Shown here: positions 1 to 60,478 of the stretch, in pieces | Layout: every line of letters begins with the position of its first letter | Position numbering within the stretch: position 1 is the first letter of the stretch | From: Raphanus sativus | Taxonomy: Eukaryota; Streptophyta; Magnoliopsida; Brassicales; Brassicaceae | Length of the DNA: 64,000 nt | Direction of reading: 5' to 3' | Assembly (NCBI RefSeq): GCF_000801105.2 | Contig: NC_079518.1 | Span: 18,952,800 to 19,016,799 of the forward strand | Position numbers and translations under genes: made by a program | Notes under the pieces: model-generated | Seen by the model: the letters and a program-made list of their open reading frames with translations, nothing else | What the model was told of the DNA's origin: nothing | Databases searched by the model: none

Positions 1-488
1 AAGCGTCCATTCTCTTTGATAGTGCAGCCATGTCATCGCTCATTGGGTAGTAGGAATGACCAAGTGTGTCTTCAAAAGAATACAGCTTGTCCTCCAATCT
101 TATAAAGCGTCTGTCGATCGATTTAAAATGGTTACTATCGATCGATCCCAATGTTTTCTACTTGTGTCGTAGCAATTCCAACTCCTTTTGCATAAGCTCT
201 CCTCTCTTGCTTATCCAATCCATGTTGCCATTAATGCTGCAGTAGAATATATCTAGTTGCTTTTGTAGGCTTTCTTCTTCCCATTGGTTGCCTGATCCCA
301 ATAATTTCTTGATCTCCTTTTTCAAAGCTCGGAACATTTCTGGTTGTCTTTCGTCGATCGGTACATCAGTGATGCTATCGATCGATTGGCTGTACGGTTT
401 GGCGAATTCTTGCGGAAAAGGGATCAATAGTCGAGTGGGCGTATCGGTCGATGGAGGTGTCCACTTTTGAGGATCAAGTTGCGGGAAG
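1..488 (-). pseudogene. Fragment of an Ath-A-type accessory gene
   Basis: Read on the minus strand, 427-158 gives 89 codons ending in a Lys/Glu-rich helical segment (W-I-S-K-R then Q-K-E-L) that matches the segment encoded near 12735-12800 of Ath-A. Beyond the stop, in another frame, 157-1 encodes S-I-D, R-F-x-x-L-E-D and a second helical stretch resembling Ath-A at 25032-25110. The order of the two segments is the same as in Ath-A, so this is an inverted, truncated relative whose rest lies left of the window. TCGATCGA-type cores lie at 114, 138, 354 and 378, each pair 24 nt apart. Function unknown; the frame is broken. Confidence 0.7.
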
Positions 489-753
489 TTGTAAGACCCG
501 AACCCGGACGCCTAGGCCGCGGTCGACGTCTCACGTCGCTCGGTCCATACACTGACCGAACCTCTCAATTTTTCGCGCTTTATCTGTACTTTCGCCTAAG
601 GACAAAGTCTATCTTAGACCTTAGCTTAAGACTACCTTAGTCACTCCCTAGCTTAGATCCTTTCAACTTATGCACAGCGGTATATTATCTATCAACCATT
701 GGTCGAAAACCAATCTAACACTTGTCAGGTCGAATCACCTTAGCCATGGTCAG
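489..753. other. Unassigned spacer, possible LTR fragment
   Basis: No coding frame is evident. The stretch begins TGTAAGACCCG, which resembles the 5' start of some plant Ty3/gypsy LTRs, and stops where Tat-1 LTR homology begins at 754. It could be the left part of another LTR that replaced the first 26 or so bases of the Tat-1 5' LTR. I found no second copy in the window, so this stays a guess. Confidence 0.3.
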
Positions 754-1171
754 TAAGTTTTCTCCAGCTTCCGGATAGGTCCTCGACTTCCGGACCCTTG
801 CTCAAGAAGAAACCAGGGACCGACCCCTGCCATATGTCCGATCCCCTAGATCGGACCGACCCCTTGGAGCAAAATAGAAGTTTTCCACCTAAGGAGAAAC
901 TTCCATTTTTCCGATTATGGAAGAGTTCTATTACTTGAAGCTGACATCTACAACTATTAAAGGGGAGCCCAAACCCTAGAATAAGGGATCGACTTTCGGA
1001 GACTAGAAGATTAGAGTTTAGGCGACAAAGACTAGGGTTTATACACCTAAACATTGTAGTCCCGATTCAAACACTCAATAACATCTTCTAGTTTACGATT
1101 TCTCTTGCTTTCATACAAATCCTCTAGTACTTTGTAGTACTAAAACGATCCTACACAAAAATACCCTAACA
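754..1171 (+). repeat. Tat-1 5' LTR, left end missing
   Basis: Aligns with the LTR copies at 60915-61354 and 62436-62875 and ends in ACCCTAACA like them. The first 26 or so bases (TGTTGGGGAAA and on) are absent. The TATA box of the other copies (CTATAAAAGG) reads CTATTAAAGG here, so this copy has probably lost its promoter as well. Confidence 0.85.
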
Positions 1172-1172
1172 G

Positions 1173-1192
1173 TTTGGCGCTAGAAGGAGGGG
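1173..1192 (+). promoter_or_regulatory. Tat-1 primer-binding site
   Basis: TTTGGCGCTAGAAGGAGG directly follows the LTR end. The same block follows the LTRs of Tat-2 (27835), Tat-3 (31453) and the second Tat-1 copy (62876), as expected of a minus-strand primer site. I could not match it confidently to one tRNA. Confidence 0.7.
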
Positions 1193-1212
1193 AGTGATTC
1201 AACTATGTGACG

Positions 1213-3475: not shown

Positions 3476-3479
3476 ATTA

Positions 3480-4983: not shown

Positions 4984-5004
4984 TAGCGAGAGGGAGAAAG
5001 GCGA

Positions 5005-7796: not shown

Positions 7797-8209
7797 GGAT
7801 ATCGATCGACTCTTTTTCTGCGCCAACATTACGACAGTTGAGGCCAGAGATCTAGATTATTTAACCAGTGATACTTCACTTGGGTTAAGCGGCTGAGATC
7901 TATAGTATCATGCAAGCAACTTGTTAAAGCATTTATAGAAATTATAATCTCCATTCTTGAATAAAATCCCTATGTCTAGCACTCTTTATCACATTTAAAC
8001 AACCCATCATATTGTTAGTTAGAGCAACTACCTTGCTCATTTTAGGAATTGCTACTTTTATTTTCATCATATAAACCAACTTCACCTAGGATTGATTAGT
8101 AGATTTTGTTTAGTTGGTTCCGTAGCTCCTCGTGATTCGATCCCTAATTACTACAGATGTACCTCTTATTTGAGAGAGTAAGCTCTACTGGGTAATTTGA
8201 GCAATATCA
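7797..8209 (+). repeat. Ath-A 5' LTR remnant
   Basis: Matches the last 413 or so bases of the 3' LTR (56576-56988). The first 930 or so bases are missing. The junction at 7796/7797 joins a Tat-1 repeat directly to mid-LTR sequence, so the deletion removed the left LTR end and any target duplication. Confidence 0.85.
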
Positions 8210-8213
8210 AATT

Positions 8214-8322: not shown

Positions 8323-9957
8323 ATGCCCAACAGAACCAGAAGCAACAGGGGAAATCAACTATTATTCTCAGAGGATCTTGCACACTTGGAACGCTCAATC
8401 CGCAAAGACCTACGCTCCACATCGATCGACAGAACCGCAGTACCGTCGACTGATACTCACGTTCATCCATCAACCGACACTTAGACAGTACCGTCGACCG
8501 ATACCGTTCGCCGATCCACATCGTTCGATACTACTCACCGTATATCGATTGACACTACTCTGCGAAGCATGGTCACGATTGTAATCCTCACGCAGGGCGA
8601 GAAAGGAAACATGTATGACCAGGATGGTCATCTGCGTAATGCAACAGGTCAGAAGCAAGATGCACAGCGAAACATCATCCCTGAGCCTGAAGCTGAGGCT
8701 ACAGGAGAAGCTCAAACACCATCGTTGGCAGACTACAATCGTCCAGACGAGTACTACACCAACAGATCATCTATTTGACTTCCAGAGATTCAGAAGCCGA
8801 ACTTCGAGCTCAAGCCTCAGTACTACTCTCTCGTGTCTCATATACCTTATTCTGGGCTATCACACGAGCATCTTATGGACCATCTGGAGAGGTTCGAGGA
8901 TCTTATCCCTGCTATTCGTATGGATGGAGTCCCTGAGTACTACCTACTCTGCAAGCTCTTCAAATACTCACTGATTGGAGAAGTTTCGCACTGGCTCAAG
9001 CAGCTACCTACAGGATCACTAACATCCTGGGCCGAAATCAAAAACGCCTTCCTGCGTAATTTCTTTGATGAAGCACGCGCTGAAGACTTAAGGAGCAAAA
9101 TCGCCACTTTCGCGCAAAAGCCTAGTGTGACTTTTAAAGACCCGTGGATCAGATTTAAGTTCTTCCAGTGAGACTGTCCACACCATGGATTCAATGAAAT
9201 GCAGCTGTTAAGCACCTTTTACAGAGGTGTCGCCTTGAGGTATCAGATGGCTCTTGATACTGCTAGCGAGGGGAACTTCAACACTAGGAATCCAATAGAG
9301 GCTGTGAGACTTATTGAGAACCTAGCCAACAACAGCATCACCAAGAACACTGACTCTGACAAGAAGAAATCGAATGCAGCCATCAGAGAAGACCAGATGA
9401 ATGAAGTCAGAGCCAAGATAGATGCTTTACATGCATTTCTGGGGCAACCAGTCTGGTCAGCTGAAGAAGGAGAGGCTAGAGAAGATGATACGGAGGAAGA
9501 TGTGAACTACATTGGAGGTACTGGATTTCAGAGATATGGAAACCAGAGTAGAAACATAAACTTTTTTGGCAGTGGTCAGAAGAGTAACTACAACCAGAAT
9601 TCACAGTATCAGAAACCCTTCACCAACACAAGGAACTATGGCAACTCAGCTTACCAAAACCCACCGCCACCCACCCATGAGAGTAAGTTTGATGCCATGA
9701 TTGATAGAGTTCTAGAAGGTCAGCAGAAGCTTACAGTAGACTTCAATGGGAAGATTGACTCTGTCTTCAACAATCTTACCACGAGGATAGACACCATTTG
9801 CACTCAAGTTAAGAAACTTGAGACACAGATTGTCCAGATTGAAGACTCTATCCGGAGGATTGGAACTTCTAAGGAAGTAGGGGAAGGAAATAGGAAACAC
9901 CACGTGAATGCCACAAGAAGCTACAAGAAGGAGACTTTGAAGTGGAAAGTTCACTAA
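8323..9957 (+). pseudogene. gag: Ath-A gag, decayed
   Basis: A single frame from the ATG at 8323 to the stop ending at 9957, with in-frame stops at 8482, 8776 and 9169. The N-terminal part contains S-I-D and related residues encoded by cores at 8422, 8446, 8470, 8494 and 8545. The gag core reads W-L-K-Q-L-P-T-G-S-L-T-S-W, F-L-R-N-F-F-D and C-P-H-H-G-F, as in Ath-B gag. The C-terminal part is a Gln/Asn/Tyr-rich linker followed by a coiled-coil-like stretch. Several stops are preceded by codons that fit CGA to TGA change. Structural protein of the particle when intact. Confidence 0.85.
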
Positions 9958-11261
9958 GTCTCGGTGGATCACAATGGTGTCGATCGATACTAACTAGTCC
10001 ACATCGATCGACATCAACAATGCAATTTCCGGATACGACTGCAGATTGCAACGCGGTTAGGATATTGACACATGCTGAATTCACGGCTTCTCATCCATAC
10101 CCACCCACCCACACCTACGAAGATATCGACCGACGAGACGAGCCACTCATCGATCGACACAAAGATGAGAACCGTATCGATCGACCCTTTTCTGCACCTA
10201 TTGATCGACACGCACCTCTCACATACCGAGTGCAACTACCATCGATAGACAGCAACCGAATCAATGCACTCAGACCCACACCGAAACCACAAGCTAACCC
10301 TACAGAGATTACTGGTAACCCTTCAGACACTACACCTACATCTGAGGGAACTGAAGGAAGAAGGTTAAGGAGTAGGAGGGAGAAGATTCCTAAGAACCTT
10401 AAAAGGGAAGCTAATGAAAAAGAGATTGATGGTTTCACGAAGAGAGTTATCAGAATCCCACCAGAAAAACCTTTTAAGGAGGTTTACTTCACAAGCAGAT
10501 TGTGGATGTTCTTCAGAGAGACAAGGGAGACAGAGAATGACATTAGAAGAAGGTTTGACAATGTCAGAGAAGATATGAGGAAAATGATTACTTTGCAGAA
10601 GAAGAGTGATCCTGGGAAGTTTGCAATACCCTGTGTAGTACAAGGGATTGAATTTCCTCATGCACTATGTGACACTGGTTCATCAGTCAGCATCTTACCA
10701 AAGGTCATTGCAGACCATCTGGGCCTGCAAGTAGAGCCTTCACCAGAGATCTTTACATTCGTGGATTACACTCAGAAAAACTCTGGAGGCTTCATCAGAG
10801 ACCTGGAAGTACATATTGGTAATGCTATCGTCCCTGTGGATTTTCATGTCCTAGACATCAAGCTAAATTGGAACTCTTCCCTCTTACTTGGAAGAGCATT
10901 TATGGCTACAGTAGGAGCCATATGTGACATGAACACCAACAGGATGTGCTTGACTCGGATAGATCCGGATGTCCACTACGACCCTGTCAAGCTTGGGAAA
11001 CCACCAGCCAAATCAGTTGTAAAAGATGATGATCCTGGTATCATTGCAGTTTGTCATTGTGAAGTCGAGTACGAGACAGAGTACTCGGGATCGATCGACA
11101 GCACCTTAACATCATCGATCGACACTCGCAAGTCAGAGGAGATCGACAACATACATCGATCATCAATCCACAGAGACCCACCAGATGATGAACTCGATCT
11201 ACCAGATCATTGCTACCCAAATTTCGCCCTCCCACCCAGCCTAAAGGAAGATGATTACTAA
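9958..11261 (+). pseudogene. pol: Ath-A protease region
   Basis: Open from 9942 to 11261 in a frame shifted relative to gag. After an N-terminal spacer full of I-D-R and S-I-D residues it encodes a basic segment, then the protease with A-L-C-D-T-G-S-S-V-S-I-L-P at about 10660-10700 and S-L-L-L-G-R-A-F at about 10880-10905. The active-site D-T-G is intact. Unlike Ath-B, no RT follows: the frame runs on into the accessory region after a TAA at 11259. Probably expressed as part of a gag-protease-accessory polyprotein before decay. Confidence 0.8.
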
Positions 11262-12839
11262 GTAAGGAGTTGGGCAGATAGCGGATTTCATGAGAGTTTT
11301 GCAATAGACATAGCCACCTCTTCCCACAGTGGAGACCACAGTGAAGAAAATGATGCAGACTACTGGGAAGAAGGAGCTTAGGAAAATTACTTAGAGAATG
11401 ACAGATTTGCAAATCGATTCCCACAATCGATCGACATCAAATGCCCACCATCGATCGATTATCTACTACATCCAGCAAAACGACATCGTCCATCGATCGA
11501 CATAACCAGTATCACATCGATTGATATTGACCCGGACGACTTAAAGGACAAAATCAGAATTTCACCGATTAGGGCAACACATGGGTATAAAAGGTTTACA
11601 AGTACATACACGAAAATTCAAACCTCTACACCTTATACCCAGCAGCTTCCAGCATTCAACAACTTATCAATGGAGGACTGCAACAACATGAACAATCGAT
11701 CCAACCATGCAGCTAGACGTGCACCATCGATCGCCACCACCACATCACCATCGATCGACGCCATCAACAGAGCCCAATCTCGATTTCATGAACCTTATGA
11801 TATCAGGAACGTTTCACTAACACCTGATGAATTTGGAATTTTCAGGGACACATGCAAGAGCAATGGATGGAAGAGTTCTGCACATAACCAGGGAAGACAT
11901 AGAAGACATCCTCCAAGTTGCTAATGGACCAGAAAACCTGTTCACACAGCAACGTAGCCATCAAGACATCCTAGCTCACGTCCAGGACAACCACCACGTC
12001 ACCACAAGAGAGGATACAGTTCCTCATGCCTTCGGTCAACCCAGGAGTTCACCATCGATCGACATCATTTCAAATCGATCGACGGCGGATATCCCGGATC
12101 GATCGACATGCCAAGAGTCAGATCGCCCGACAGACGATTGGAGTTTGGACGACGTGCCTTCAATACTGATGGATCCAGGAGATTCAAATGGGAAGCAAAG
12201 GATGAATATGGTGTCTACAGAGATGAGTTTGGCCATACTAGAGGAGTTGATGGTGAAATCATCCATGTTACAAGGAAGCAAATAAGAAAAATTCTGGAGA
12301 GAGCATCCCTTTTTCACAGAGGTTGCTTATGCCTTCCAGTACACACACGCCCTTACCATGCATACAGACCACCACCAGTACCCTACAGTAGAGAGGAGAT
12401 AGATGATATGGTGACTGATGTATGGAGAGCTCATGCACACCTTGAGGCAAACATACACACATTGGTGGAAGACACTTTCCAGCCTTTGGATGTCAGTTAC
12501 AAGGACCTCCAGAGTGATATGGCTGAGATAAGAGTGGAGCTTGGAAACATATTAACAATGCTTGAGAAGGAAGCTATGCCACCAGTATCGATCGACACAG
12601 TACCTGTGCCATCGATCGACATCGGCAAGACTACATCTAAGGACCGACCAGAATGTTCATCACCTAAGAAAGATGAATGGGAGATTGCTTACATCAATAC
12701 ACGGATTGGAGACGTCTACAGCCCTCTCAGCAACAATGTCGAATGGTTAAGCAAGAGGATCGATCTTCAACAGAAAGAGCTAGCATCAATTCGCAAGAAG
12801 GATCAAGGTAAGAATGCTACTTCTCCATCGATCGACACA
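11262..12839 (+). pseudogene. Ath-A accessory reading frame, part 1
   Basis: The phase of the protease frame continues past stops at 11259 and near 11380. After frameshifts near 11850 and 12110-12160, 12108-12839 is open. Two copies of one module are seen: D-E-F-G-I-F-R-D then D-G-R-V-L-H-I-T-R-E near 11830-11910, and D-E-Y-G-V-Y-R-D then D-G-E-I-I-H-V-T-R-K near 12210-12280. Helical, Glu/Lys-rich segments follow. S-I-D spacers separate modules. I do not recognise a family of known function. Ath-B interrupts it at 12839; it resumes at 25020 in the same frame. Confidence 0.65.
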
Positions 12840-14151
12840 TGATATACCATGAATTTCACCCGTTTTTAGCCATGGTATATGAGAGTTTTCAATCATATTT
12901 ACTACGTTTTCAAAGTATTTTAGAGTATTTTCAGGCGCATGTACTTAATTGAAGAAAGCAATACTTTTGAGGCATTTTTAGAGTATTCTCACGAATGAAG
13001 AATCGACCGATAGGAAACATGCGAGATCGGACGATTAGAGTCAATTACAATCGATCGACAGAAATCGAAGAGTGTCGATCGATATTAAGCCATTCAATGG
13101 ATCACGATTAAGAAGATTTTCAAGTATCACAAGTGTGCTATTTTTACACAATTAGTCCCTGGCCGCCTGTTAGGCTTTATATACTAGGGTTTTGTATCAT
13201 TTTAGAGGCAGACTTGCCTAGAGACCTATTGGAGAAGAGAAGCAATTTGGCTACCTTAGGAGAAGAGTTAGAGTTGGAGAGATAGATCTGAGACTGCAAA
13301 ACACAGAAGATCTTGAACTCCCTTTTTATCTGACTCATTACTCTTTGTGTTCCTTATTTCATATTGAATTTTATTCAAACCATCATGATCTTGTCTCTCA
13401 TGAATATGTCTGAGTAAACCTAATTGTTAGATTTAGGTTTCTCATAAGGGTGAATCATGTGATGAGATTGTGATATTTATTAGGGTTGTTAAATTAGTTC
13501 TTTCACTTAGTTATTCTTAATACTAGATTTAGGATTGATCACCCTTAAATCTAGATCTTAGGATTGAAGAGATAACCAACTGTATACTCTCAATGCCCTA
13601 GTGATCTAACTGACTAGACTCATGCGAAAGGTGGTCTAGATCATTAGAGAACGCGTTCAACCAAATCGATAATGCTTGCTAGAATTACCATCGATCGATA
13701 CAATCATCGTTGTAGCGATCGATTGTATGGAAGGTGTATCGATCGATTAAGACGAAAGTCGTATCGATCGACTCTTTTCCGAGATCAACAAACGACAGTT
13801 GAGATCTGGGATCTAGTAAAGGAGACCCTACTGGTCGTACCAATTGATTGAGTTCAAGGACTAAAGCCCTATTGTCACTTTCAAACTGCATAAATTCATA
13901 CCTGAGAAATACCTGAATCTAGCTATCTTCCCCATTTAGAAACAACCTTCACTTCAGTTACTGAACAACTCCCTTGTTCACATTAATATTTACTGTTTTA
14001 AAACATATAAAACCTTAAGTCTATCTTAATTTCTATTTAATTAAGCCTTCAAGTAATCCTAGAGTCCTTGTGGATTCGATCCCTAAGTACTGCATCTGAA
14101 CCTCTTATTTGAGAGAGTAATTCACTTTTTAGGGTAATTTGAGTGATATCA
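12840..14151 (+). repeat. Ath-B 5' LTR
   Basis: TGATATACCATG ... GATATCA, matching 23691-25014. A TATA-like TTTATATA lies near 13177-13184. Cores at 13051/13075 and at 13691, 13715 (variant), 13739 and 13764 are spaced 24, 24, 24 and 25 nt, outside any coding frame. Confidence 0.93.
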
Positions 14152-14155
14152 AATT

Positions 14156-14173: not shown

Positions 14174-14269
14174 CTCTTTCTTATTACTTTTAGATTTAAT
14201 TTAGAATTTAGCGTAGACTTTGTTACTTTTGCTAATTCTCCTATTCTTTTGTTTAAAAAAAAAAGAAAG

Positions 14270-15793
14270 ATGGAGAATACATGTGTCGGCCAAGCATCGA
14301 TCGAAACGGAACATTGTCAATCGATCGACGCAGATACTGAAGAATCGATCGTTTCATCCGGAACGTTATCGATCGATACCACCCAGCCGGAAGCAGGTAA
14401 GTACCCTCTTACCGACGCTAATAATGAGAAAGTAGTCCAAACTGAACCAGTAGGTCAATCAAGCAACACTTCTAGCCAAACTAATGAAAAACAGGGGACT
14501 GAAATCCTTGTTAAGTCAAACTCTACCTTGAACATAGGTAAAGAGATTAAATTTCCCTTGCAAGACTACTTAAACCCCGATAGGACCTATTCCAATAGGT
14601 CCGCTATCAGAATACCTGACGACGTCACCTCGAAAACCAAGTTTAATGCTGACTATTATAATATGATGCGTCGAAACCCTTTTAAAAGATCTTCTCTAGA
14701 ACATCCACAAGACCACATAGAGGGTCTAGAGGAATTAATTCCAGACGAGTATATTCGTTGCAGACTTTTCCCATTTTCATTAGAAGGGGGAGCCTTGAGA
14801 TGGCTAAACTGTCTACCAAGAGGATCCCTGACTAGCTGGAAAGAGATTAGAAATGCTTTCCTTAAGCAATTCTTCGACGATACTCGTTATTGGGAAGTAA
14901 GGAGGCGAATCTCTACCTTCCGTCAAGATCCTTAGGAATCATTCAAAAATGCATGGGGAAGATTCAAGAGTTACGAACTCGAATGCCCCCACCATGGTTA
15001 TCCAGAACCACAATTTCTTAAGATCTTTTACAAAGGTGTTATTCTGAGCTATAAGACAACGCTTGATACAGTAAGCGAAGGGAATTTCGTTACTAGAAAT
15101 CCTATGAAAGCAAGACGTCTAATCGAAAACATGGCAAGAGGAAGATCCTATGAAGAAATGGATGAAGAAAAAGAAAAAGAAAAAACTATAGTCTCAATAG
15201 AAAATACTGAGTTAGCTGAAATAAAAAATTCCATAAATTCGCTTCATTCTCTTCTGACAGATCAAAATCCACCTAATCTGTGCCAGTACTTCCATAAAAG
15301 TCCTCTTATATCAGATGATGAGCTCGACTTTATAGAAAGATTAGATGATACTGATCCTCATTCTGTGTTTAACATCGACAGCTTTACACGAGACTATGAA
15401 ATCTGTATACAGTCTCGTACTGGGAGAGAGAAGTACAATCTAAAACAGGCTCTTACAGGAAACCGTAAAATGAAATCCGAATTCAACGGGAAAATAAATA
15501 GTGTTTACGGTGAGCTAAATCAGAAGATGGATTCTCTAATCGAACACCTACGGGGAATGGAAGACAAAATTGCTAACCTTGCAACTACTCTAAAAAGAGA
15601 GGCAGGTCGTCTTCCTGGAAGGACCGATGCTAATCCTGGAGCAAAACGCCAGGCATATGCCGTAATGTTACGAAGCGGAAAACACCTTGAAACAAATCCC
15701 AGAAAAGATGCCAGCAATAAAAAATTCATCGATAATGCGGGAAAAAGCAATTCTAACCCCATAGAACTTCTCGACAATGACTCCGATACATGA
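14270..15793 (+). pseudogene. gag: Ath-B gag, decayed
   Basis: ATG at 14270 follows an A-rich leader. The first 35 or so residues hold four octapeptides starting S-I, encoded by cores at 14297, 14321, 14345 and 14369, exactly 24 nt apart. The gag core has W-L-N-C-L-P-R-G-S-L-T-S-W, F-L-K-Q-F-F-D-D and C-P-H-H-G-Y. The tail contains a coiled-coil-like region and the A-Y-A-V-M-L-R-S-G-K segment that precedes the protease spacer in Athila. Stops at 14933 (TAG) and 15791 (TGA) interrupt an otherwise continuous frame that runs on into pol. Confidence 0.88.
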
Positions 15794-16813
15794 ACATCAG
15801 AACAAAGGGAAAACTCTTCAAATAAAAAGAATCAGGGGAAGACTATAGACTTAGACCAAGAGAATCCCGATGCCGAAGTCGAGATCGACCATCTGGACGA
15901 ACCAAATGTCGATCGATCCTCTGGGAAGGAAAACGATCGACCGTCTAGCGGCACTGGCGATGGCAATACGCAATCTACCAGGACTGAAAGAGTCTATAGA
16001 ACTCCTCCCCCATTTCCTCCAAACAAACCACAAACAAAGAAAGCATTGGAACATGCAATCTGCAAAAAGGCTTTTGAAAAAATCAATCTGGAAATGTCCC
16101 TCAATGATGCTCTTAAGATAGCCCCCTCGGTGAAAAAATACGTAAAAGATATGATATCCTCGAGTGGAGAACAAAGCGTCATGCTGGTGTCAGAGGAAGT
16201 AAGTGCCATGATACAAGGGGAAACTTCAATTAAAAGGTCTGACCCTGGTAGTTTTGTCCTAGATTGTAAGATACAAAACGCACGTTTTCCTTGATCTCTT
16301 TGTGATCTTGGCTCTAGTGTGGCAATTTCACTAGGTTATGATGTATTTGTCCCAACGCCTATCACGTTAGTTCTAGCTGATCGTTCTATTAGGGTACCTG
16401 AAGGAATCCTGGTAGATGTACCAGTCAAAATTGATGATTGCTTCATACCAGCAGATTTTGTCGTACTCAAGTATAAACAAGTGCCGAAAGACCCCCTTAT
16501 ATTAGGTCGGCCCTTTTTAGCTACAGCAGGAGCAATAATAGATTGTAGAGGAGGAAAGATTGATTTAAATGTCGGAGATATATCAATGAACTTCGACATG
16601 GAAAAACTATTAAAACGCCCTCTAATAGACGATCACGCCTTTTACGCAGAAGAAGTTTATGAGCTGGAGAAAGAATACCTTACGGATATATGTGCTACCA
16701 ATTCATCAGAAGACACATTCACTCCTGATGAACAAGAAATTCTGAAAGTAGATAGCAGAACAGAAGATTACGCGAACCTTATGGACGCAAGTATCGGAGA
16801 TGCAAATGAATAA
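15794..16813 (+). pseudogene. pol: Ath-B protease region, decayed
   Basis: Same frame as gag. A polar spacer (cores at 15909 and variant 15933) leads to the protease: S-L-C-D-L-G-S-S-V at about 16295-16321, L-I-L-G-R-P-F-L-A-T-A-G-A near 16495-16540. D-L-G in place of D-T-G is usual in Athila. A TGA at 16292 falls three codons before the active-site Cys-Asp, and a TAA at 16811 closes the open part. It would mature the polyprotein. Confidence 0.82.
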
Positions 16814-18625
16814 AATGATGATTCTGAAATCATTACGGATCAATTCCTTAGGGAAACTATTGATCGTTCATTTTCTTCATCGACCAAATGGACTAAAGAA
16901 AAAGCGCCCAAAGTGGAACTGAAACCACTTCCAGCTGGCCTGAAATATGCATTCCTTTGCGATAAATAACACCCTGTCATTGTTAACGAAAATCTCACAA
17001 ATGGAGAGCTTGCGCTTCTTTTAAACAAGCTGCGTAAGTATCGGAGAGCGATCGGGTATTCTCTCGATGATATTCCCGGAATAGCTCCTGACCTTTGCAT
17101 GCACCGCATCTACCTCGAAGAAGATGCAAAAACTTCTATAGAACAGCAAAGGAGACTCAACCCAAACCTAAAAGAGGTAGTGAAAAAGGAAACAATTAAA
17201 CTTCTGGATGATGGAGTTATATATCCTATCTCAGATAGCAAATGGGTAAGCCCTGTGCATGTTGTACCAAAGAAAGCTGGGATCACAGTGGTTAAAAACG
17301 ATAAAGACGAACTTATCCCCACACGCACTGTCACTGGACATCGAATGTGTATTGATTACAGGAAACTGAATGCTGCTACTAGAAAAGACCATTTTCCCTT
17401 ACCTTTCATCGATCAAATGCTCGAAAGGCTGGCTAACCATAAATATTACTGTTTTCTTGACGGATATTCGGGATTTTTCCAGATACCGATACATCCTGAA
17501 GATCAAGAAAAGACAACTTTTACTTGTCCTTACGGAACATTTGCATATCGCAGAATGCCATTTGGACTATGTAACGCACCAGCCACTTTCCAACGCTGCA
17601 TGATGTCAATATTCACAGACATGATCGAAGATTTCATGGAAGTCTTTATGGACGATTTTTCGGTTTACGGATCAAGTTTTAAGGATTGCTTAGACAACCT
17701 GTGCAAGGTATTGGAAAGATGCGAAGAAAAGAATCTTGTCCTAAATTGGGAAAAATGCCATTTCATGGTAAACAATGGTATAGTCCTTACACATAAAGTT
17801 TCCGCAGCTAGAATAGAAGTAGACAGAGCCAAAATTGAAGTAATGACTGGTCTACCGGCACCCACAAACGTTAGAGACATACGAAGTTTCCTTAGACATG
17901 CCGGATTTTACAGACGATTCATACAAGATTTCAGTAAAATTGCTAGACCCCTGAACAATCTTTTGTGCAAAGAAGTTAAATTCGATTTTACGCCAGAATG
18001 TAAGGAAGCTTTCGAAGCGCTGAAGAAGTCTCTTAGAACTGCCCCAGTCGTACAACCACCCGATTGGAATCTCCCTTTCGAGATTATGTGCGATGCGAGT
18101 GATTTCGCAGTTGGAGCAGTTCTAGGACAACGAAAAGATAAGAAGCTACACGCTATATACTATGCAAGTCGCACACTCGACGAAGCGCAACGGAACTACT
18201 CTACCACAGAAAAAGAGTTACTAGCAGTGGTTTATGCTTTCGAAAAATTCTGCCAATACTTAGTTGGAGCACATGTTATAGTCCACACTGATCATGCTGC
18301 CATCAAATATTTAATGCAGAAGAAAGATGCTAAACCAAGACTAATAAGATGGATCTTGTTACTGCTAGAGTTTGATATCGAAATCAAAGATAAAAGAGGA
18401 GTATACAACGGTGTCGCTGATCATCTTTCCAGGATTCGAATTGAGGATAAAGTTCCTATAGACGATTTCTTTCCCACAGAGAATATAGCTCTTTTGGACA
18501 CGTCATTCATAGGTCACATATCGCTCATATCTGACGGATTGCTGGACGAATCAAATGGCAAACTGACGACCGACACTACTGATACAAGATCAATCATATC
18601 CATCAGCGACAGAACATCAACATAA
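16814..18625 (+). pseudogene. pol: Ath-B reverse transcriptase and RNase H
   Basis: After a TAA at 16967 the frame is open from 17099 to 18625 (508 codons). RT motifs: [45 protein letters not shown], and the catalytic F-M-D-D at about 17645-17656, with Phe where many relatives have Tyr. RNase H follows: [28 protein letters not shown] at 18623 separates it from integrase. No second RNase H, as expected for Athila. Confidence 0.9.
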
Positions 18626-20016
18626 CTTATTGACATACCAGTTAAGGTTGCTTGTAATGCTTTAAATCATAATATATCCGATGTCTCTCTACAAGAAGCA
18701 AACACGATTGGACGGAACATCAAAGATCGACCTTGGTGTGCCGATATAGTCAACTATTTAGCCGCTGATTTTGAACCAGAAAATTTAAAAGGTTACGAAA
18801 GAAAGAAATTCTTTCGTGAAGTTCAGAGATACAACTGGGATGAGCCATATCTCTACAAGCATTGTTCTGACGGTATATATAGAAGATGCGTCTCTGAAGT
18901 TGAAATTCCGAACATTATTTACCAATGTCATAGCTCTGATTACGCAGGACATTTCGCCACTTTTAAAACAGTTTCCAAAATTCTCCAAGCAGGATTTTGG
19001 TGGCCAACAACATTTCGCGATGTTCATGCTCATATAGCACAATGCGACAGATGTCAGCGGAGAGGAAAAATAAGCAAGAGACATGAGATGGAACAAAAAT
19101 TTATCTTAGAAGTAGAAGTTTTCGACTGTTGGGGAATAGATTTTATGGGTCCTTTCCCATCTTCTTATGGCAACAAATATATCCTAGTCGCTGTAGACTA
19201 CGTCTCAAAATGGGTTGAGGCAGTTGCTTCCCCTACAAATGATGCGTCTGTAGTTATCAAACTTTTCAAGAGCATCATCTTCCCAAGATTTGGAGTTCCA
19301 AGAATAGTCATTAGTGACGGTGGATCACATTCCATAAACAAAGTTTTCGACAGATTGCTTGAGAAGAATGGTGTCCACCATCGAGTAGCTACACCTTATC
19401 ACCCACAAACCAGTAGACAAGTGGAAGTTTCGAACCAAAAATCAAGGAAATCTTGGAGAAGACTCTCCGAATAGACAGGAAAGATTGGTCTCGCAAATTG
19501 GACAATGCCTTATGGGCATATCGGACCGCCTATAAAACACCACTGGGAACGACACCCTTTCACTTGCTGTACGGAAAATCATGCCATTTACCAGTTGAAC
19601 TGGAGCACAAGGCAGCCTTGGCAACCAAATTATTAAATTTTGATATTAAGCCAGCTGCCGAGAGACGACTAATTCAGCTCAACGAGCTCGATGAAATACG
19701 ACATTTGGCATATGAAAATTCGAAGTTATATAAGGAACGAACAAAAGCTTATCACGATAAGAAAATCCTGTCTAGACGCTTTGAACCGAATGATCAAGTT
19801 CTCCTATATAACTCCAGATTAAACCTTTTCCCTGGAAAACTAAAATCTCGTTGGTCAGGACCTTTTACAATTAAGGAAGTAAAACCTTCCGGAGCACTAA
19901 CGATCGTTAGTGAAAAGGGCGACGAGTTCACAGTAAACGGGCAGCGAGTAAAGCATTATTGGGCCAAACCACCAGATATAAAGCCCCTTTCGCTGCTACC
20001 ACCCGGTGATAACTAA
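18626..20016 (+). pseudogene. pol: Ath-B integrase, one frameshift
   Basis: Same frame as RT up to about 19440. Zinc-binding H...G-H-F...C-D-R-C at about 18930-19060. Core: [19 protein letters not shown], and Q-T-S-x-Q-V-E-V-S-N where the usual Gly reads Arg. A one-base loss near 19438 moves the remainder to 19453-20016, which holds [10 protein letters not shown], the [11 protein letters not shown] motif and the C-terminal beta-rich part. The end at 20016 precedes a conserved non-coding block. Confidence 0.88.
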
Positions 20017-20053
20017 AAGCAGTTATCCTAAGTCGAGCTAAAGACTTTAAACT

Positions 20054-20076
20054 AAGCGCTGAATGGGAGGCAACCC
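20054..20076 (+). promoter_or_regulatory. Conserved post-pol block
   Basis: AAGCGCTGA..GGGAGGCAAC lies 38 bases after the pol stop. The same block occurs at 25875-25897 in Ath-A, after its accessory frame, although the flanking DNA has diverged and no protein is shared. Conservation outside coding sequence suggests an RNA-level or cis role, such as splicing or packaging (inference). Confidence 0.55.
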
Positions 20077-20819
20077 ATTTTCCTTTTTAATTTATTTTCA
20101 TCCTTATTTTAACTTTTATTCTCAATTTTCTTTTTATTCATATTTATTTCGCTTAATTCGTTTAGTTATAAATTTTAATCACTAGTTAGTATCATTTTTA
20201 GTATTTTCAAAACATTCACTTTCCCATATGCATAAAAATCGATCGATATCAACCATGTTGTATCGATCGACACGGGGATGTCGAGGCAACTTCTCATTTA
20301 ACTCGACATCCGCCTCTTCTTTCCTTATTTCGCAAACCCTAGCTGAATCATAAAACTCTCTTTTCTCTCTCAATTCTTGACGATTTCCGTTGAATCTTTG
20401 CCCAAAACCACTCGATTTCAAGACATCCATCTGTTTTCATTCGCATTTCTCTATATATCCAAGGTATTGGTCCGAAATTCTCTTTGGATTGAATCCCAAG
20501 GGATTGGGTTTTGAATTGGGAAAATCGGGTCGGTTTGGTGCAATTCTAGGGCGTTTTAGATGTTTAAACCGGTTATCTAGGTGCTAGGATAGTTTGTTAT
20601 GCTCCAATCCTCTCTTTTGATTCGATTTTCGTATGAACTGTTGAATTGCAGGTTTCGCGAGTCGCTATCGATCGACACAGACTTTGTCCTGTCGATCGAT
20701 TCCTGACTCTCTGATGAACACTGATTTTATCTATCGATCGACATACACGAGTGTGCATCAGTCGATATTACTCTCTTTCGCGAACCAAGCTAACTTACTC
20801 ATTTTGCTTTTCTTTTCAG
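20077..20819 (+). other. Non-coding leader before the ATHILA ORF-1-type gene
   Basis: No supportable frame. Cores at 20239/20263 and 20668/20692 are 24 nt apart; another is at 20734. A pyrimidine tract ending TTTTCTTTTCAG (20808-20819) abuts the ATG at 20820 and looks like a 3' splice site, which fits expression of the downstream gene from a spliced RNA. The donor is not identified. Confidence 0.5.
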
Positions 20820-22205
20820 ATGAGCACAGATTCGGATACTGAGAGAGAGAGGAGGACGAAGAGGAGGAGTGATCCCGCTGGCCCTTCAAACCGCCGACAA
20901 CCTTGGGTCCCGAGGGACGACAAGAGGCCTCCATGGCCACATGTGGATAAGACCCCCATCGCTTACAGGGAGGGTCGCAACTTCTCGGATCCGAGGGCAG
21001 TCATCTCCAGCAGAGAGTGTACCAATAGAGAGCTCACAGAGCAGTGGGACGACTTCGACAGCCTGCACTACAACGCCTGGATCGATGTCGACATCGAGCC
21101 TACACGCTTCATTGAGCCGGAGGTCACACACAAGATGCGGATCCAGGATGATCTGTACGCGATGATCGCTCAGCTCGGGTTGGGCACCATGGCCACGCAC
21201 GCCTACGACCTCCACATTCCGTTGGTCTGCCAGTTCATGGCCTCTGTCCGTCTCACCTACCGCCATGATGGTCCTAAAGTCGCGGGCGACGGCGTGCTCT
21301 CTTTCTTTGCTCGAGGGAAGAGATACTCGATCACCATCCCCCAGCTCTGCAGCATTTTTGGTTTTGAGGAGGATGCGACATCTTGCAGGTTCTCGCCTCT
21401 CCCTGGTGTGAACGCCTTCTGGAAGATCATAGGCACCGGCAGTTGGAGCGGCTCAGCGACTCAGTCTGACGTTCGCCACCCGACTCTACGCTACTTCCTA
21501 CGGGCTATTGCCAACACTCTGTTGTGCAAGATGGAGCCCAACAAGGTGCGCCTACATGATCTCTCACTGCTCTTCCCAGCAGTTAACGGACTGGTCGATC
21601 TCTCTCACCTCGACACTGCAGGACTGGTAGTCCCCAACCTTGGAGCTCTCTTCGCCGAGCATCTGATCTCACTGAAGAAGAAACCCTTCACGGGTTCGGG
21701 TAGGAAGAAGGAGAGTGTGGGTAGTCTTCTCACACTGATCTTTGAGTTCTGTGGTGTCCGTCTGGACAGGGGTACCGCAGACCGCCGCCATCTCTTCATG
21801 GACGAGCAGCACCTGATGCACTGCGTCTGGCTCAAGGAGAGCCTTCTCTGGTTTTTCAGGATTGACCGTCGCTTCCGTATGTTTCAGCTCCCGCATGCAT
21901 CACTCACTGACTTCGACCATCAGGTCGACAGGATCCGGTTCAGGCCCGACGACGAGTTCCTTTTGGAGCTCACCACCGAGTCTCGCCAGGAACCGATGGA
22001 GCGTGGTGTTGGAGGATCGCAGGCAGCTCCCGCAGCTCCCCTTCCTGACATCCCGGACATACCAGACATCCCGATGCCAGAGGCAGACTTTCAGAGGACA
22101 GTCATGACTGCTCTACGAGCCATCTGGGCTCGAGTCACGCGACCACCATGTGCGAGCAGGAGGAGTGTCAGAGCATCAGACCCAGGACCATCTCACCAGT
22201 ACTAG
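20820..22205 (+). CDS. ATHILA ORF-1-type protein in envelope-like position
   Basis: Intact 461-codon frame from the ATG just after a splice-acceptor-like CAG. The N-terminus is basic and polar. The middle (residues about 90-370) has the features of the ATHILA ORF-1 family: W-D-D-F, L-G-L-G-T-M, C-Q-F-M-A-S-V, F-F-A-R-G, S-I-F-G-F-E and L-R-Y-F-L-R-A-I-A-N. The C-terminal part has a P-D-I-P repeat and a basic end. No clear signal peptide or strong membrane segment is seen, so an envelope role is only positional. The gene is GC-rich for this element and has no stop, in contrast to the broken gag-pol. Function unknown. Confidence 0.85.
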   Translation: MSTDSDTERERRTKRRSDPAGPSNRRQPWVPRDDKRPPWPHVDKTPIAYREGRNFSDPRAVISSRECTNRELTEQWDDFDSLHYNAWIDVDIEPTRFIEPEVTHKMRIQDDLYAMIAQLGLGTMATHAYDLHIPLVCQFMASVRLTYRHDGPKVAGDGVLSFFARGKRYSITIPQLCSIFGFEEDATSCRFSPLPGVNAFWKIIGTGSWSGSATQSDVRHPTLRYFLRAIANTLLCKMEPNKVRLHDLSLLFPAVNGLVDLSHLDTAGLVVPNLGALFAEHLISLKKKPFTGSGRKKESVGSLLTLIFEFCGVRLDRGTADRRHLFMDEQHLMHCVWLKESLLWFFRIDRRFRMFQLPHASLTDFDHQVDRIRFRPDDEFLLELTTESRQEPMERGVGGSQAAPAAPLPDIPDIPDIPMPEADFQRTVMTALRAIWARVTRPPCASRRSVRASDPGPSHQY

Positions 22206-25014: not shown

Positions 25015-25019
25015 ACACA

Positions 25020-48388: not shown

Positions 48389-48560
48389 TGATACACCCTA
48401 AATCTGATCACTCGTCCGGTATGAAGAGATATGAACTCCGAAGAGAACTGATGGATTGTTTGACGACACAATGGGTTGCGGAAGAACCCAATGATACTGC
48501 CGGGGTGCTTGATTGTTGCCTGATATGACTCATAGGTCCAACAAGGAAGCAAACTCAATA
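48389..48560 (-). repeat. NA-5 partial LTR
   Basis: Identical to the first 172 or so bases of the full LTR copies apart from one base, then switches directly to leader sequence that matches 52680-52994. The junction shares about two bases (AT) between the two partners. Confidence 0.88.
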
Positions 48561-55641: not shown

Positions 55642-56988
55642 TGATATACCATGGATTTTACCCGTTTTTAACCATGGTATACTAGTATTTTATTATATAT
55701 TTAATCTGTTTTCTAGCCTGTTAGGTATGTTTTCAGGTTCAGGAGCCTTTTGTGAGAAAGTGATGTTTTTGGAGCATTTTGGAGTAGAAGAGATGATATA
55801 CCCGAGTTGATCATTCAAGACCAAGTCGGAAGTCAACATTGCGATTATAATCGATCGATACTCATCCAGAGTTATCGCTCGATGTAGCTGAGAAGATCCG
55901 CGTACTAGAAGATTATAATCGACCGATACTCATCCAGAGTTGTCGATCGATATCGAGGACGAAATGGTTTAGCCGACTACTTCACCAAGACTTCACCAAA
56001 TTACGAGATTGCCCCTGACAAGTTTTTAACCTAATGGAAATGCTTAAATATTCCTGCTAAGTGTTTTTTGACGGCAACCTTCGAAAGAAGCAAGCTCAAG
56101 AGAAAAGCAAAGAGTGTGAGAGAGAGACTAGAGTTTATATTGTTTTGAGAGATTGGAGAGATTTCTCATCTCCTTTTGTATTTCTACTTATTTATATCTA
56201 TGCAATTCTTTCATCTATCCATTGTCATGAATTGCTTAGCTATGTCTGAGTAGTCTACTTGTTAGATCTAGAGTTTAAATAGGTTTGTGGGATTAGCCCC
56301 ACACTATAATTGCTAAGTTGTGGCACTCATCAAATGGATTGCACCCTATGCTTGTTCTAGATTAGCTAACTAGAATATAGATCACTAGGATCTTTGATTA
56401 TCTTGAATTATCCATTTGAGATAGCTTGTCTCCCGTTGAGAAGAGCGACAACTCCTCCTTGAGACCTAGTGTTCATTATCGGCTCACACCTAGGCATATC
56501 TAGAAGCCGTCGATCGATATCCCGACAGGTGAATCGATCGGCGCTGCAAAAGGTGTATCGATCGATATCTCAAAAGGATATCGATCGACTCTTTTTCTGT
56601 GCCAACATTACGACAGTTGAGGCCAGAGATCTAGATTATTTAACCAGTGATACTTCACTTGGGTTAAGCGGCTGAGATCTATAATATCATGCAAGCAACT
56701 TGTTAAAGCATTTATAGAAATTATAATCTCCATTCCTGAATAAAAGCCCTATGGCTAGCACTCTTTATCACATTTAAACAACCCATCATATTGTTAGTTA
56801 GAGCAACTACCTTGCTCATTTTAGGAATTGTTACTTTTATTTTCATCATATAAACCAACTTCACCTAGGATTGATTAGTAGATTTTGTTTAATTGGTTCC
56901 CTAGCTCCTCGTGATTCGATCCCTAAGTACTACAGCTGTACCTCTTATTTGAGAGAGTAAGCTCTACTGGATAATTTGAGCACTATCA
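55642..56988 (+). repeat. Ath-A 3' LTR
   Basis: 1347 bp, TGATATACCATGG ... CACTATCA. Cores at 55851, 55875 (variant), 55919 (variant), 55943, 56510, 56534 (variant), 56558 and 56581: spacings of 24 within each group, the last 23. The solo LTR at 59121-60478 is the same family. Confidence 0.9.
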
Positions 56989-57250
56989 AACACTCAGAAA
57001 CCTCAGGGTTCAATGAGCAAACCTCCGGGTTCAGTAAAACGGCTTTCGGGCCTAGGTAAGGGACCTCAGGGTTCAAGGCCTTAAGAACTTCCGGGTTCTA
57101 GGGCTCAAGAACCTCAGGGTTCAAACCAAGCTAGAACTCTAGGGTTCTAAGCAAGGATCTTTCACTCCAAAACTAAAACTCAGGTTTTTAATAATGGATT
57201 AGAAGGTCTAACGCTTTTCTAATCATTTCAGGGTTCAGTCAATTTACTAA
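56989..57250 (+). repeat. Degenerate CCTCAGGGTTCA repeats, right part
   Basis: The Tat-1 repeat array resumes here after Ath-A, with the same core and 20-30-base spacing as 7485-7796. Confidence 0.8.
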
Positions 57251-57697
57251 CAGGATCCATGTCCTAGACACTGATACCCGTCCAAGGGGTCAACACCTAC
57301 AAGGGTCCGACCCTCACGAGGCTCTAGCCCTTCCAAGGGTCCATCCCTTCCGGCGAATCTACAAGTCTACCTAGACGTCCTGGTATTCTGGAGATACGAC
57401 GTTTGCTCGACAAGGGCTGTACCCCTGGGCCGTTGATGCCGCAACATGATCCCAATCCTAGACCCTAAAACTCCGCCTGGAAGATTGTGCTCGAAGCCCC
57501 TACGAACCGTTCTAGTTGGAAGACAGGGCTGGAAAATTATGAAGACATAAATTTAAGAAGAGAATACAACAGAAAAAGGGGAAAACGATAAGTATTATTA
57601 TTATGCTATCAGAAGTCCTTATTCGAGTACAAGATCATCAAAAGCCCGGGGAAAGAAATCATAATATAGAATAAAACATTAACGAAAAAGAAAAACG
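57251..57697 (+). other. Tat-1 3' non-coding region
   Basis: Contains further loosely repeated AAGGGTC elements and an A-rich stretch. No sense gene. It borders the 3' end of the antisense gene, whose likely stop is near 57697. Confidence 0.6.
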
Positions 57698-59083
57698 CTT
57701 CAAGGCTTCGGGTGATGTGGTGCCGGATGAAAAGCATCCAGTCCACCTCTCCCATTCATCGAACCTTGGACAGGCCCTCCAACAGGTCCCCAGCGACTGA
57801 TATTCCTCTCCGACTACTCCTTCACAAGCTCCCAACGAGCTTGCTCGCGGCCCTCTGCATGGTCAAAGCTTGATGAGTTATCACCTCTCGAAGCTGGGTA
57901 CAAAGGAAGAGGATCTCCTCGTGCGGAGAAACACGCCGGCATGTACCAAACAATCTGTTATTTCCTGCATTTCTTAGGGTCGAGGAAGTCGCAATTGAGG
58001 AGACAAAAGAAGGTGATGCATAAGACCGTGTCCTTTGAGGATTGGCCCTACAATATTCATTATACACCGATGATATCGAAGCTCCAGGAATACCACCTAA
58101 AAATCAGCAAAGCAAAGGGTCAGAACCGATCCAGTGACTGTTTAAGGGAAAGAAAAACTATCTTACCCCAATTACGACTATGACGTAAGGACATCCGGCT
58201 CATCAGAAATAAAATCCAACGGTATCGCCTGGGAATATCCCTTGTCAGGTTCACCATAATTTCGCCAGCAGGGAATACCGGCCGAAAGATCTCTGCAAAA
58301 ACATTACGTAAGATGGAATAGCGACGCAAAAGTTATCTTAAAAAATAAAAAGGGGGCATACCGACGGATCACCAAAAGATAGGATAGCGCGGAACACCAT
58401 TAACCTTCATGAACGCATATCTCCTGTTCCAGAAGTCGTTTGAAGGGAAACTTCCCCGGACTCCCCTAGGAGGTTCGTCTACCAAAGGTTCACCGTCACG
58501 AGACCAAATCTGATAAAAATCCTTCTTGTTTGATAAGGGAAGGAAGGAGTAGGAGTACAAAATTTCAGGTAGTCCGAAGGGAATACTGTGAAATTCACCC
58601 AACACTTGAATTGCCATCAGGGTGCGCCACGTTGCTGGCATGAACTGCGAAGGAGAGACCCTAAAGTAAGACGCTACTTCCGCGACCAGGGAAGGAATGT
58701 CCCCCCCCCCTGAAGCCTGCTTCTAGGTACACCTCGAAGATGGCTATCTCGTCGGTACCTCCATCACGAGTACATTTGAATTCACCCGCACATCGTAGTT
58801 CCATCGAGTCGGGAAGAGAATACTTCCTGCGGATCCCTATCAGATCTTCCTGCCTGATGTCCGATATCGGACCATCCTCACCCTCATCACCAAAAGAACA
58901 AAAGCGACGCTGTCGCAAGGGAGCCATGGGAGCGTCTTCACTACCCACTCTTGAAGTCGCTCCTGGAGTCAGAATAGGCGAAGCGAAGGGATCACCGAAC
59001 ATGTACCGAGGCCTAGCATGACCACCGACATGGGAAGCTGGACTCGCTCCGAAGTGGGTCTGGTCGTTTGATATTCTTCTCAA
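57698..59083 (-). pseudogene. Tat-1 antisense gene, three exons, decayed
   Basis: Minus-strand ATG at 59083. A frameshift in a C10 run near 58700 splits exon 1 (59083-58362). The second half of exon 1 encodes V-Y-L-E-A-G-F-R-G, F-M-P-A-T-W-R and F-H-S-I-P-F-G-L, resembling the putative gypsy-type transposon domain (PF04195-like, from memory). Two GT-AG introns of 69 and 70 bases (58361-58293 and 58166-58097) keep the frame. A TGA lies just before the first intron. The C-terminus runs to a stop near 57697. Its leader and TATA region are separated from it by the solo LTR. Role unknown. Confidence 0.65.
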
Positions 59084-59120
59084 GCAAGGGTGATGGTTCT
59101 GACTCGGATCTATGTCATTG

Positions 59121-60478
59121 TGATAGTGCTCAAATTACCCAGTAGAGCTTACTCTCTCAAATAAGAGGTCTAGCTGTAGTACTTAGGGATCGAATCACGA
59201 GGAGCTAGGGAACCAATTAAATAAAACCTACTAATCAATCCTAGGCAAGGTTGGTTTATATGATAGAAATGAAAATAACAATTCCTAAAATGAGCAAGGT
59301 AGTTGCTCTAACTAACAATATGAAGGGTTGTTTAAATTGGATAAAGAGTGCTAGACATAGGGTTTCTATTCAGGAATGGAGATTATAATCTCTATAAATG
59401 CTTTAATAAGTTGCTTGCATGATACTATAGATCTCAGCCGCTTAACATATGTGAATGAATCACTGGTTAAAATATCTAGATCTCTGGCCACACCTTTCGC
59501 ATGATGACACAGAAAAAGAGTCGGTCGATATCCTTTTGAGATATCGAGCAATACACCTTTCGCGGCGCCGATCGATTTACCAGTAGGGTATCGATCGACG
59601 GCTTCTAGATCTGCCTAGGCGCGAACCGAATATGACCGCGAGGTCTCAAGGAGGAACTGTCGTTCTTCTCAACGGGAAACAGGCATCGCTCAAATTGATA
59701 ATTCAAGATAATCTAAGATCCTAGTGATCTATGTTCTAGTTAGCTACTCTAAACCAAGCATAGGGTACAATCCATTTGATGAGTATCACAACTTAGCAAT
59801 TATAGCTTGGGGCTAATCCCACAAACCTATTTAAACACTAGATCTAATAAGTAGACTACTCAGACATAGCTAAGCAATTCATAACAATAGATAGATGAAA
59901 GAATTGCATAGATAGAATAAAGTAGAAATACAAAAGGAGATGAGAAATCTCTCCAATCTCTCTCAAACAAATAAAACTCTAGTCTCTCTCTCACACTCTC
60001 TGCTTTAGTTGTAAAAAGCTTCAAGCTTCAAAGGGTTTCAAAACTTGCCGTCAAAAGCACTTAGCAGGAGTACATAAGCATTTCCATTAGGTTAAAAATC
60101 GTCAGGGGCAATCTCGTAATTTGGTGAAGTCTTGGTGAAGTAGTCGGCTAAACCATTTGGTCCTCGATATCGATCGACAACACTAAATGTGTATCGATCG
60201 ATTATAATCTTCTAGTACGCGGATCTTCTCTGCTACATCGATCGACAACTCAGGATGAGTATCGATCGATTGTAATCGCAATGTTGACTTCCGACTTAGT
60301 CTTGAATGGTCAACTCGGGTGTATCATCTCTTGTACTCCAAAATGCTCCAAAAACATCACTTTCTCACAAAATGCTCCTGAACCTGAAAACATACCTAAC
60401 AGGCTAGAAAACAGATTAAATATATAATAAAATACTAGTATACCATGGTTAAAAACGGGTAAAATCCATGGTATATCA
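59121..60478 (-). repeat. Solo LTR of the Ath-A family
   Basis: 1358 bp in reverse orientation, TGATAGTGCTC ... GGTATATCA, matching 55642-56988. Flanked by CATTG at 59116-59120 and 60479-60483 with no internal region, so it is a product of LTR-LTR recombination. Cores at 60170/60194 and 60238/60262 are 24 nt apart. Confidence 0.93.

Follow-up and report, generated by a model that had tools for sequence, protein, structure and literature searches.

A 24-nucleotide lattice of palindromic cores in Athila-type retrotransposons of radish

The stretch analyzed here, called the window, comprises 64,000 nucleotides (nt) of the radish genome (Raphanus sativus, contig NC_079518.1, positions 18,952,800 to 19,016,799). 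It carries Athila-type retrotransposons with long terminal repeats (LTRs), in which a palindromic 8-nt core, TCGATCGA, recurs at a step of exactly 24 nt. Core and spacing are held at the nucleotide level while the spacer drifts, and the lattice is present in more than one element family of the radish genome. Athila elements are widespread in crucifer heterochromatin. Those of Arabidopsis are called centromeric in a published abstract.

Cores and elements in the window

The window contains 56 exact cores. Fifty-five lie within 1-27000 and 55801-62000, which is Athila-type DNA, and the remaining one is at 46406. Dinucleotide shuffling (30 shuffles of each part) gave means of 0.53 for 1-27000 (45 observed), 1.03 for 27001-55800 (1 observed) and 0.03 for 55801-62000 (10 observed). 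Exact 24-nt pairs number 11, 0 and 2 in these three parts; the shuffles contained none. In the element-rich parts, TCGATCGA is the commonest palindromic 8-mer with 55 copies, the runner-up having 7. The initial annotation had counted about 55 cores in Athila segments and one elsewhere, with less than one expected by chance, which agrees with these figures (shuffles: about 0.6 in the Athila-type parts). Its listed positions pointed to the right places, with the stray core misplaced to 46407. Some of its listed cores prove to be inexact (354, 14345, 56534 and 8494 with 7/8 matches, 8446 and 8470 with 6/8), all of them in phase.

A nested element (12840-25015) has 1.3-kb LTRs (12840-14152 and 23691-25015, 97.1% alike), gag (PF03732), a reverse transcriptase/RNase H region (RVT_1/RNase H) and, downstream, an open reading frame (ORF) with the PF03078 domain, as expected of a carrier from the Athila lineage. 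An integrase was not identified in it in this analysis. An assembly gap (100 N at 23206-23305) lies 5' of its 3' LTR. It is inserted into an outer element, which resumes beyond it. The arrays and associated features are listed below. Near-cores are words with at least 6/8 matches to the core; fractions in brackets give their matches.

114..385 (strand not given): core array 114, 138, 354 (7/8), 378, with steps of 24 and 24
7802..7809 (+): core within the tail of an LTR (7796-8211, 97% to 56575-56990)
8422..8552 (+): exact core 8422; near-cores 8446 and 8470 (6/8) and 8494 (7/8) in phase; near-core pair 8521, 8545 (7/8 each)
9980..10208 (+): linker ORF array 9980, 10004, 10126 (7/8), 10150, 10177, 10201 (7/8), read as RSI/RST and then IDR
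9942..11261 (+): outer-element ORF with a retroviral-type aspartyl protease domain (scores just below curated cut-offs); no exact core in 10231-11060
11091..11524 (+): SID-linker arrays 11091, 11115, 11139 (6/8); 11427, 11451; 11493, 11517 (7/8)
11727..12130 (+): SID-linker arrays 11727 (7/8), 11751; 12055; 12075, 12099, 12123 (6/8)
12588..12835 (+): cores 12588, 12612, 12828; the +24 partner of 12828 is now at 25032, split off by the nested insertion
12840..14152 (+): nested 5' LTR with 13003 (7/8), 13027 (6/8), 13051, 13075; 13691, 13715 (7/8), 13739, 13764
14249..14935 (+): gag ORF (PF03732), phased array at its start: 14297, 14321, 14345 (7/8), 14369
16001..20200 (+): presumed pol (reverse transcriptase/RNase H ORF 17099-18625; outer limits set by us), 4.2 kb free of exact cores
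20239..20765 (+): arrays in the interval from pol to the PF03078 ORF: 20239, 20263; 20668, 20692; 20734, 20758 (6/8)
20751..22205 (+): ATHILA ORF-1 family protein (PF03078), without an exact core
22468..22499 (+): pair 22468 (7/8), 22492
23691..25015 (+): nested 3' LTR with 23854 (7/8), 23878 (6/8), 23902, 23926; 24554, 24602, 24627
25032..26084 (+): outer element continued: 25032; 25212 (7/8), 25236; 25464, 25488 (7/8 each), 25512 (6/8), 25536; 26053 (6/8), 26077
55642..56988 (+): LTR (90.6% to the inverted 59121-60478) with 55851, 55875 (7/8), 55919 (7/8), 55943; 56510, 56534 (7/8), 56558, 56581
59121..60478 (-): oppositely oriented LTR copy with 59568 (7/8), 59591; 60170, 60194; 60238, 60262

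Each LTR of the nested element has five exact cores, and further ones occur at the gag start. Exact cores reach 8.9 per kb before the PF03078 ORF and 3.7 to 13.8 per kb in the linkers of the outer element. None was found in the 4.2-kb presumed pol, the protease stretch of the outer element or the PF03078 ORF (with region limits that we set ourselves). The lattice thus seems to occupy the sequence that the enzymes leave free.

The 5-bp target duplication of the nested element (ACACA, 12835-12839 and 25016-25020) begins at the last base of core 12828. When the outer flanks are rejoined, a 24-nt core pair results again, and a related locus, M, has an intact pair with a similar spacer.

CCTCAGGGTTCAA-type tandem repeats occur near LTR tails (7461-7798 and 57063-57155). 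Their units are 22-38 bp long; one is of 24 bp, without a core.

A 14-bp palindrome at a 24-nt step

In an alignment of 89 non-redundant cores, the preceding base is a purine (R) in 89/89 and the following base a pyrimidine (Y) in 88/89, with a weaker outer pair, which extends the motif to a palindrome of 14 bp, RYR-TCGATCGA-YRY. Between neighboring cores there is almost no information over the 89 sites, and the word recurs at exactly -24 and +24. The same preference is found at 30 non-coding sites with symmetrized flanks (R at -1 in 60/60 half-sites). Near-cores retain the flanking R and Y in 40/41 on either side; their changes fall on CpG positions 19 times and on A/T positions 36 times. Near-cores with 6/8 or 7/8 matches stand at 24-nt steps in many arrays, so that decayed cores do keep the phase, as had been proposed.

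Counts were extended to the 433-Mb radish assembly (6,413 contigs), with the reversed word as control. There are 29,483 cores (control 7,524) and 7,632 pairs at exactly 24 nt (control 0). The exact spacing of neighbors claimed in the initial annotation is thus found throughout the genome. Pooled spacings of 8-23 nt gave 491 pairs (control 179) and those of 25-54 nt gave 4,268 (control 18). Among the first 100 listed of the latter, 33 are at 48 nt and 23 at 44 nt, these 44-nt pairs being mostly copies of one LTR site. Cores are concentrated rather than evenly spread, since 16/20 10-kb stretches sampled regularly along one contig (C1) lack them. In viral contigs, 69 stretches have a 24-nt pair, a single one each, which was treated as background.

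The period is not due to copying of a few sites. After collapsing copies in the window alone, a core-like word stands at +24 in 23/49 cores and at +48 in 8 (background 0.26 per distance). The first sample of loci consisted of the window, the regular C1 sample and loci from a search for 24-nt pairs. With decayed cores allowed, a partner stands at +24 for 46/95 non-redundant cores in this sample, at +48 for 21 and at +72 for 9 (background: mean 0.46 per distance at 100-300), and the top combination of word and distance is TCGATCGA at 24. A later-fetched 20 kb (from the listing of 25-54 nt pairs) contributed 28 new cores, with partners at +24 in 13, +48 in 9 and +72 in 5 (background 0.08). Once similar spacers are collapsed, the distinct ones number 29 at 24, 10 at 48 and 6 at 72; no other distance up to 150 has more than 3. 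A second family is represented by locus L029, the internal DNA of which has no blastn match of at least 200 bases in the window's outer element; its LTR is 81-83% identical to that of locus M. The initial annotation had named two outcomes that would count against it, a missing 24-nt peak genome-wide and a peak due to copies of one recent element only. A peak is found in the genome of the species itself, and it survives the collapsing of copies.

L029 also contains a gag-like ORF of the second family (L029:2385-3755; PF03732, just below cut-off), in which TVHxx repeats form an unusual N-terminal stretch, mixed with SIDTVH units.

Constraint on nucleotides and on spacing

The outer element of the window, locus M and a further paralog, L030, were compared in three pairs. 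Core positions are identical in 134/136, 182/184 and 283/288 cases (98.3-98.9%), the adjacent 16 nt in 379/419, 478/566 and 819/950 (84.5-90.5%). The remaining sequence is 91.9-93.5% identical, and other CpGs are kept at 78-83%. Fisher tests gave 1e-3, 1e-9 and 6e-11 for core versus flank, and 0.01, 7e-5 and 2e-4 for core versus rest.

One ORF of locus M reads successive cores in three frames (RS[T/I], IDR and SID), and so does the window ORF around 9942-11261. In-frame SID tripeptides are encoded as TCG-ATC-GAY in 75/81 cases, with 4.3% expected from codon usage elsewhere, and RST as CGA-TCG-ACA in 12/17 (copies included in both counts). The three frames and the uniform SID codons imply a constraint on nucleotides. 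A nucleotide-level signal had been suggested before and is strongly supported; the palindromic flanks and the cores outlasting their spacers in the three comparisons agree with it. The cores had been described as occurring in LTRs and in coding DNA, which is correct for both, and as being read as SID or IDR, to which RS[T/I] has to be added as a third frame.

The period is also visible in protein relatives. In the pooled listing, which covers 120 of 546 relatives, the commonest distance between copies is 8 residues for SID, for IDR and for RS[T/I] alike; the distinct spacers number 43, 26 and 16, respectively. The second family (120 listed of 122 relatives) behaves in the same way for SID and IDR (28 and 14 spacers), with only 4 spacers for RS[T/I]. 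Organisms named among the listed relatives are Raphanus, Brassica and Sinapis, many rows being nameless; the relatives at 91% and 95% belong to Raphanus sativus. As read from these protein sequences, relatives in Brassica and Sinapis share the period.

Outside long ORFs, 31/44 distinct neighbor pairs within 12-36 nt are exactly 24 nt apart. LTR comparisons gave 107 gap openings and 847 substitutions (0.126 per substitution), from which 5-22% of intervals would be expected to be free of indels at 0.5-1 substitution per site (a rough figure, as the LTR pairs are not independent). Because spacers this diverged should often have changed length, the step counts as held in non-coding DNA.

Other repeats of the window

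Tandem arrays of about 32 bp, GC-rich and of one CGTGCTGGCCGTGGCCGCCGG-like unit family, lie at 26529-26916, 30259-30558, 38014-38428, 48151-48388 and 53993-54068; they contain no exact core. At 39590-44783, a 984-bp direct repeat (99.7%) brackets minus-strand ORFs of 248 and 856 amino acids, the smaller of which overlaps the repeat. This looks like a young element. The 856-residue ORF had no Pfam match at 0.001. Two 1.3-kb repeats (48558-49870 and 52678-53989, 99.7% identical) also surround minus-strand ORFs.

Interpretation of the lattice

Arrays, mostly of two to four palindromes, occupy the LTRs, the beginning of gag, the gag/protease linkers and the interval preceding the PF03078 ORF. We lean slightly towards reading them as a cis-acting lattice that would offer a symmetric (dimeric) DNA-binding protein its sites at a constant step of 24 bp and would probably control silencing or expression of the element. 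Each palindrome may be the site of one such protein, probably a homodimer. At the 24-bp step (a 14-bp site and a 10-bp gap, about 2.3 helical turns), neighboring dimers would touch and could bind cooperatively. By analogy to VANC in VANDAL transposons (see below), their most likely role would be to recruit a factor, encoded by the element or captured, that maintains expression of the element or prevents its silencing. With two CpGs per core, CG methylation could gate binding. It is tempting to go further and to speculate that a spacing-locked code of 14-bp palindromes at 24-bp steps, superimposed on coding as well as non-coding sequence, is at work in Athila-type elements of the Brassiceae, with an oligomerizing protein coating the element and shielding it from silencing, and the CpGs acting as a methylation switch; this stronger version is possible, but we rather doubt it.

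The PF03078 ORF encodes a possible reader. It stays a candidate because a relative from sunflower is predicted to be nuclear, according to the part of the source considered (PMC11728184). It gave no match to DUF1985 or DUF287, the domains of VANC-type proteins, up to E = 10, a level at which the search may filter weak matches.

Several observations weigh against a protein-site lattice or against the evidence adduced for it. The 24-bp step does not correspond to an integral number of helical turns. No reader protein was identified: the PF03078 ORF yielded an AlphaFold model too poor to be informative (pLDDT 31.9), and its profile matched nothing credible in the PDB (best E 0.56). The three paralog comparisons overlap, sharing sequences, and a fourth, M versus L029, is reversed (cores 30/32, adjacent 16 nt 126/128), but covers just two LTR cores, both of which enter the count twice. 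The codons of IDR vary more than those of SID (ATC-GAT-CGA in 17/33, copies included). The loci outside the window were chosen from listings of core pairs, so that their distance spectra are pair-enriched; the genome counts are unaffected. VANC motifs, as far as the cited accounts go, are non-coding, whereas many cores here lie in long ORFs, in three frames, besides the LTRs. Finally, the inner 10 nt of 47 consecutive spacer pairs are 37% identical compared to 27% when shuffled, and 0/2000 shuffles reach 37%. The sequence between cores, initially described as not conserved, is so over all sites, but adjacent spacers within one array are slightly alike. Inherited unit length therefore explains part of the regularity.

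This last point also counts in favor of a rival view, that the lattice is a relic of a 24-bp tandem repeat, in which slippage or unequal exchange between cores multiplies the units and the step is inherited, the spacing having no function. Besides the spacer likeness, there are a few near-identical neighboring units (L101 5457, also in a second register, and L030 9683), and the program TRF reports a 24-bp array at 56510-56588. The whole-unit similarity expected of such a repeat is not seen, however: spacer information is near zero and neighbors are only weakly alike. A pure relic would not keep cores and step while spacers diverge, as they do in three of the four paralog comparisons and, by the rough indel estimate, outside ORFs. 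We consider a pure relic unlikely, and what stands of this earlier proposal is a possible route of supply. Our conclusion is that some units come from 24-bp duplication, with selection maintaining core and step; other units may have arisen by point changes in phase. An RNA-level signal, with cores pairing in genomic RNA (hairpins, dimerization, packaging), appears a shade less probable than the relic. Palindromic cores are able to pair, 3/5 folded stretches have z < -3, and the non-ORF spacers of the first sample looked like hairpins (28 spacers, z -3.25), an effect that persists when all non-ORF spacers are pooled (37 spacers, z -2.1, p 0.03). The effect is reversed in the later-fetched loci alone (9 non-ORF spacers, z +2.2), though, and is not seen for ORF spacers. 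The partner core compensates 4/108 mutated positions and the own palindrome 2/108, and dyad symmetry of the spacers is not significant (30 spacers, p 0.08-0.69). Hairpin-forming spacers were set aside, not disproved, as the split into non-ORF spacers was post hoc and was not replicated.

The arrays might also be sites of a host factor or a silencing signal, such as one recruiting RNA-directed DNA methylation or 24-nt small interfering RNAs (siRNAs), retained via a promoter function. Their location in LTRs and near gene starts suits this idea, and short motifs can recruit Pol IV in the REM-GDE1 system according to the text considered (PMC12270911), but the motif described there, TTTTGCTTAT in tandem, is unrelated. 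Judging from the paralog comparisons, a pure silencing signal should be lost rather than conserved at its CpGs. Nothing in the sequence evidence considered here ties the lattice to 24-nt siRNAs, a link that the initial annotation had put forward, and we deem a host-factor site or silencing signal improbable. It is very improbable that the element inserts beside cores, these serving as integration target or tether. The nested element does sit within a 24-nt core pair with its 5-bp target duplication, and, genome-wide, a core lies at most 20 nt upstream of 9 LTR starts, 5 of them distinct, among the 280 of that sequence (5' and 3' LTRs counted jointly). Such a core is lacking at the other 271/280, and a few per cent is about what we would estimate for core-dense Athila DNA. 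A structural 8-residue protein motif, SIDxxxxx, would account for the SID spacing in the listed relatives; it is contradicted by the same period of IDR and RS[T/I] in other frames, by the fixed SID codons and by the arrays in LTRs, and is hardly credible. Paired sites for a DNA-binding protein, one of the candidates in the initial annotation, fit best among those proposed, given the palindromic flanks and a spacing that is maintained in non-coding DNA as well; a protein-site lattice accounts for the data better than RNA hairpins or a pure tandem relic.

Comparison with known systems

Repeated cis motifs in plant transposons are already known; the core and the 24-nt lattice described here are not among them, as far as the accounts considered extend. 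No description of TCGATCGA in retrotransposons or of a 24-nt lattice was found in the literature, as judged by the listed titles and beginnings of abstracts, a coverage that leaves subscription papers and supplements outside.

The Sirevirus motifs (PMC2829016) are likewise palindromic repeats in LTRs of plant retrotransposons, near env in some elements, and are presumed to be regulatory. They have a CGG-CCG core, belong to Ty1/copia elements and cluster upstream of the TATA box, and no 24-nt lattice is described in the part of that account considered; here, the core is TCGATCGA and the element has gag, reverse transcriptase and PF03078. SIRC of A. thaliana (PMC10342631) are short direct repeats with unrelated spacers, some in ATHILA2/ATHILA6A, with a suspected role in DNA or RNA. 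Their repeats are 10-29 bp long and of many sequences. The text considered describes no common core or period, and according to its authors there is no repetitive pattern of amino acids, unlike the situation here. In radish, the spacers are unrelated, and the fixed core has 8 bp, or 14 with its degenerate flanks. The REM/GDE1-CLSY3 motif (PMC12270911) is a strictly spaced motif read by DNA-binding proteins at siRNA loci. As described there, it consists of two or three TTTTGCTTAT 1 nt apart at 86 sites, and thus differs in sequence and spacing. This Siren/REM motif was rejected as the identity of the core because of its different sequence.

The analogy drawn above is to the VANC targets of VANDAL elements in Arabidopsis (PMC5735166, PMC10398659). 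VANC is a transposon-encoded protein that binds repeated motifs and removes methylation (PMC5735166). As in the radish elements, where one short motif is repeated above chance in one transposon family, a short motif occurs many times per transposon group and has spread through tandem units. VANC targets have, according to these accounts, a demonstrated reader, an element-encoded anti-silencing protein, whereas that of the radish lattice is inferred. Their motifs are YAGTATTAY (VANC21) and AGTTGTCC/AGTTGTAC (VANC6), with no fixed period described in the parts of the two papers considered, and VANDAL is a DNA transposon, whereas the lattice is carried by an LTR element. A cis signal formed by one palindrome at an exact step, across coding and non-coding DNA of more than one family, is strong and directly testable. 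It also makes visible, as few cases do, a constraint on DNA that dictates protein sequence in three frames. It bears on how LTR retrotransposons escape silencing. If the stronger version considered above is true, the lattice would represent the equivalent of VANC in LTR retrotransposons, built on a different architecture.

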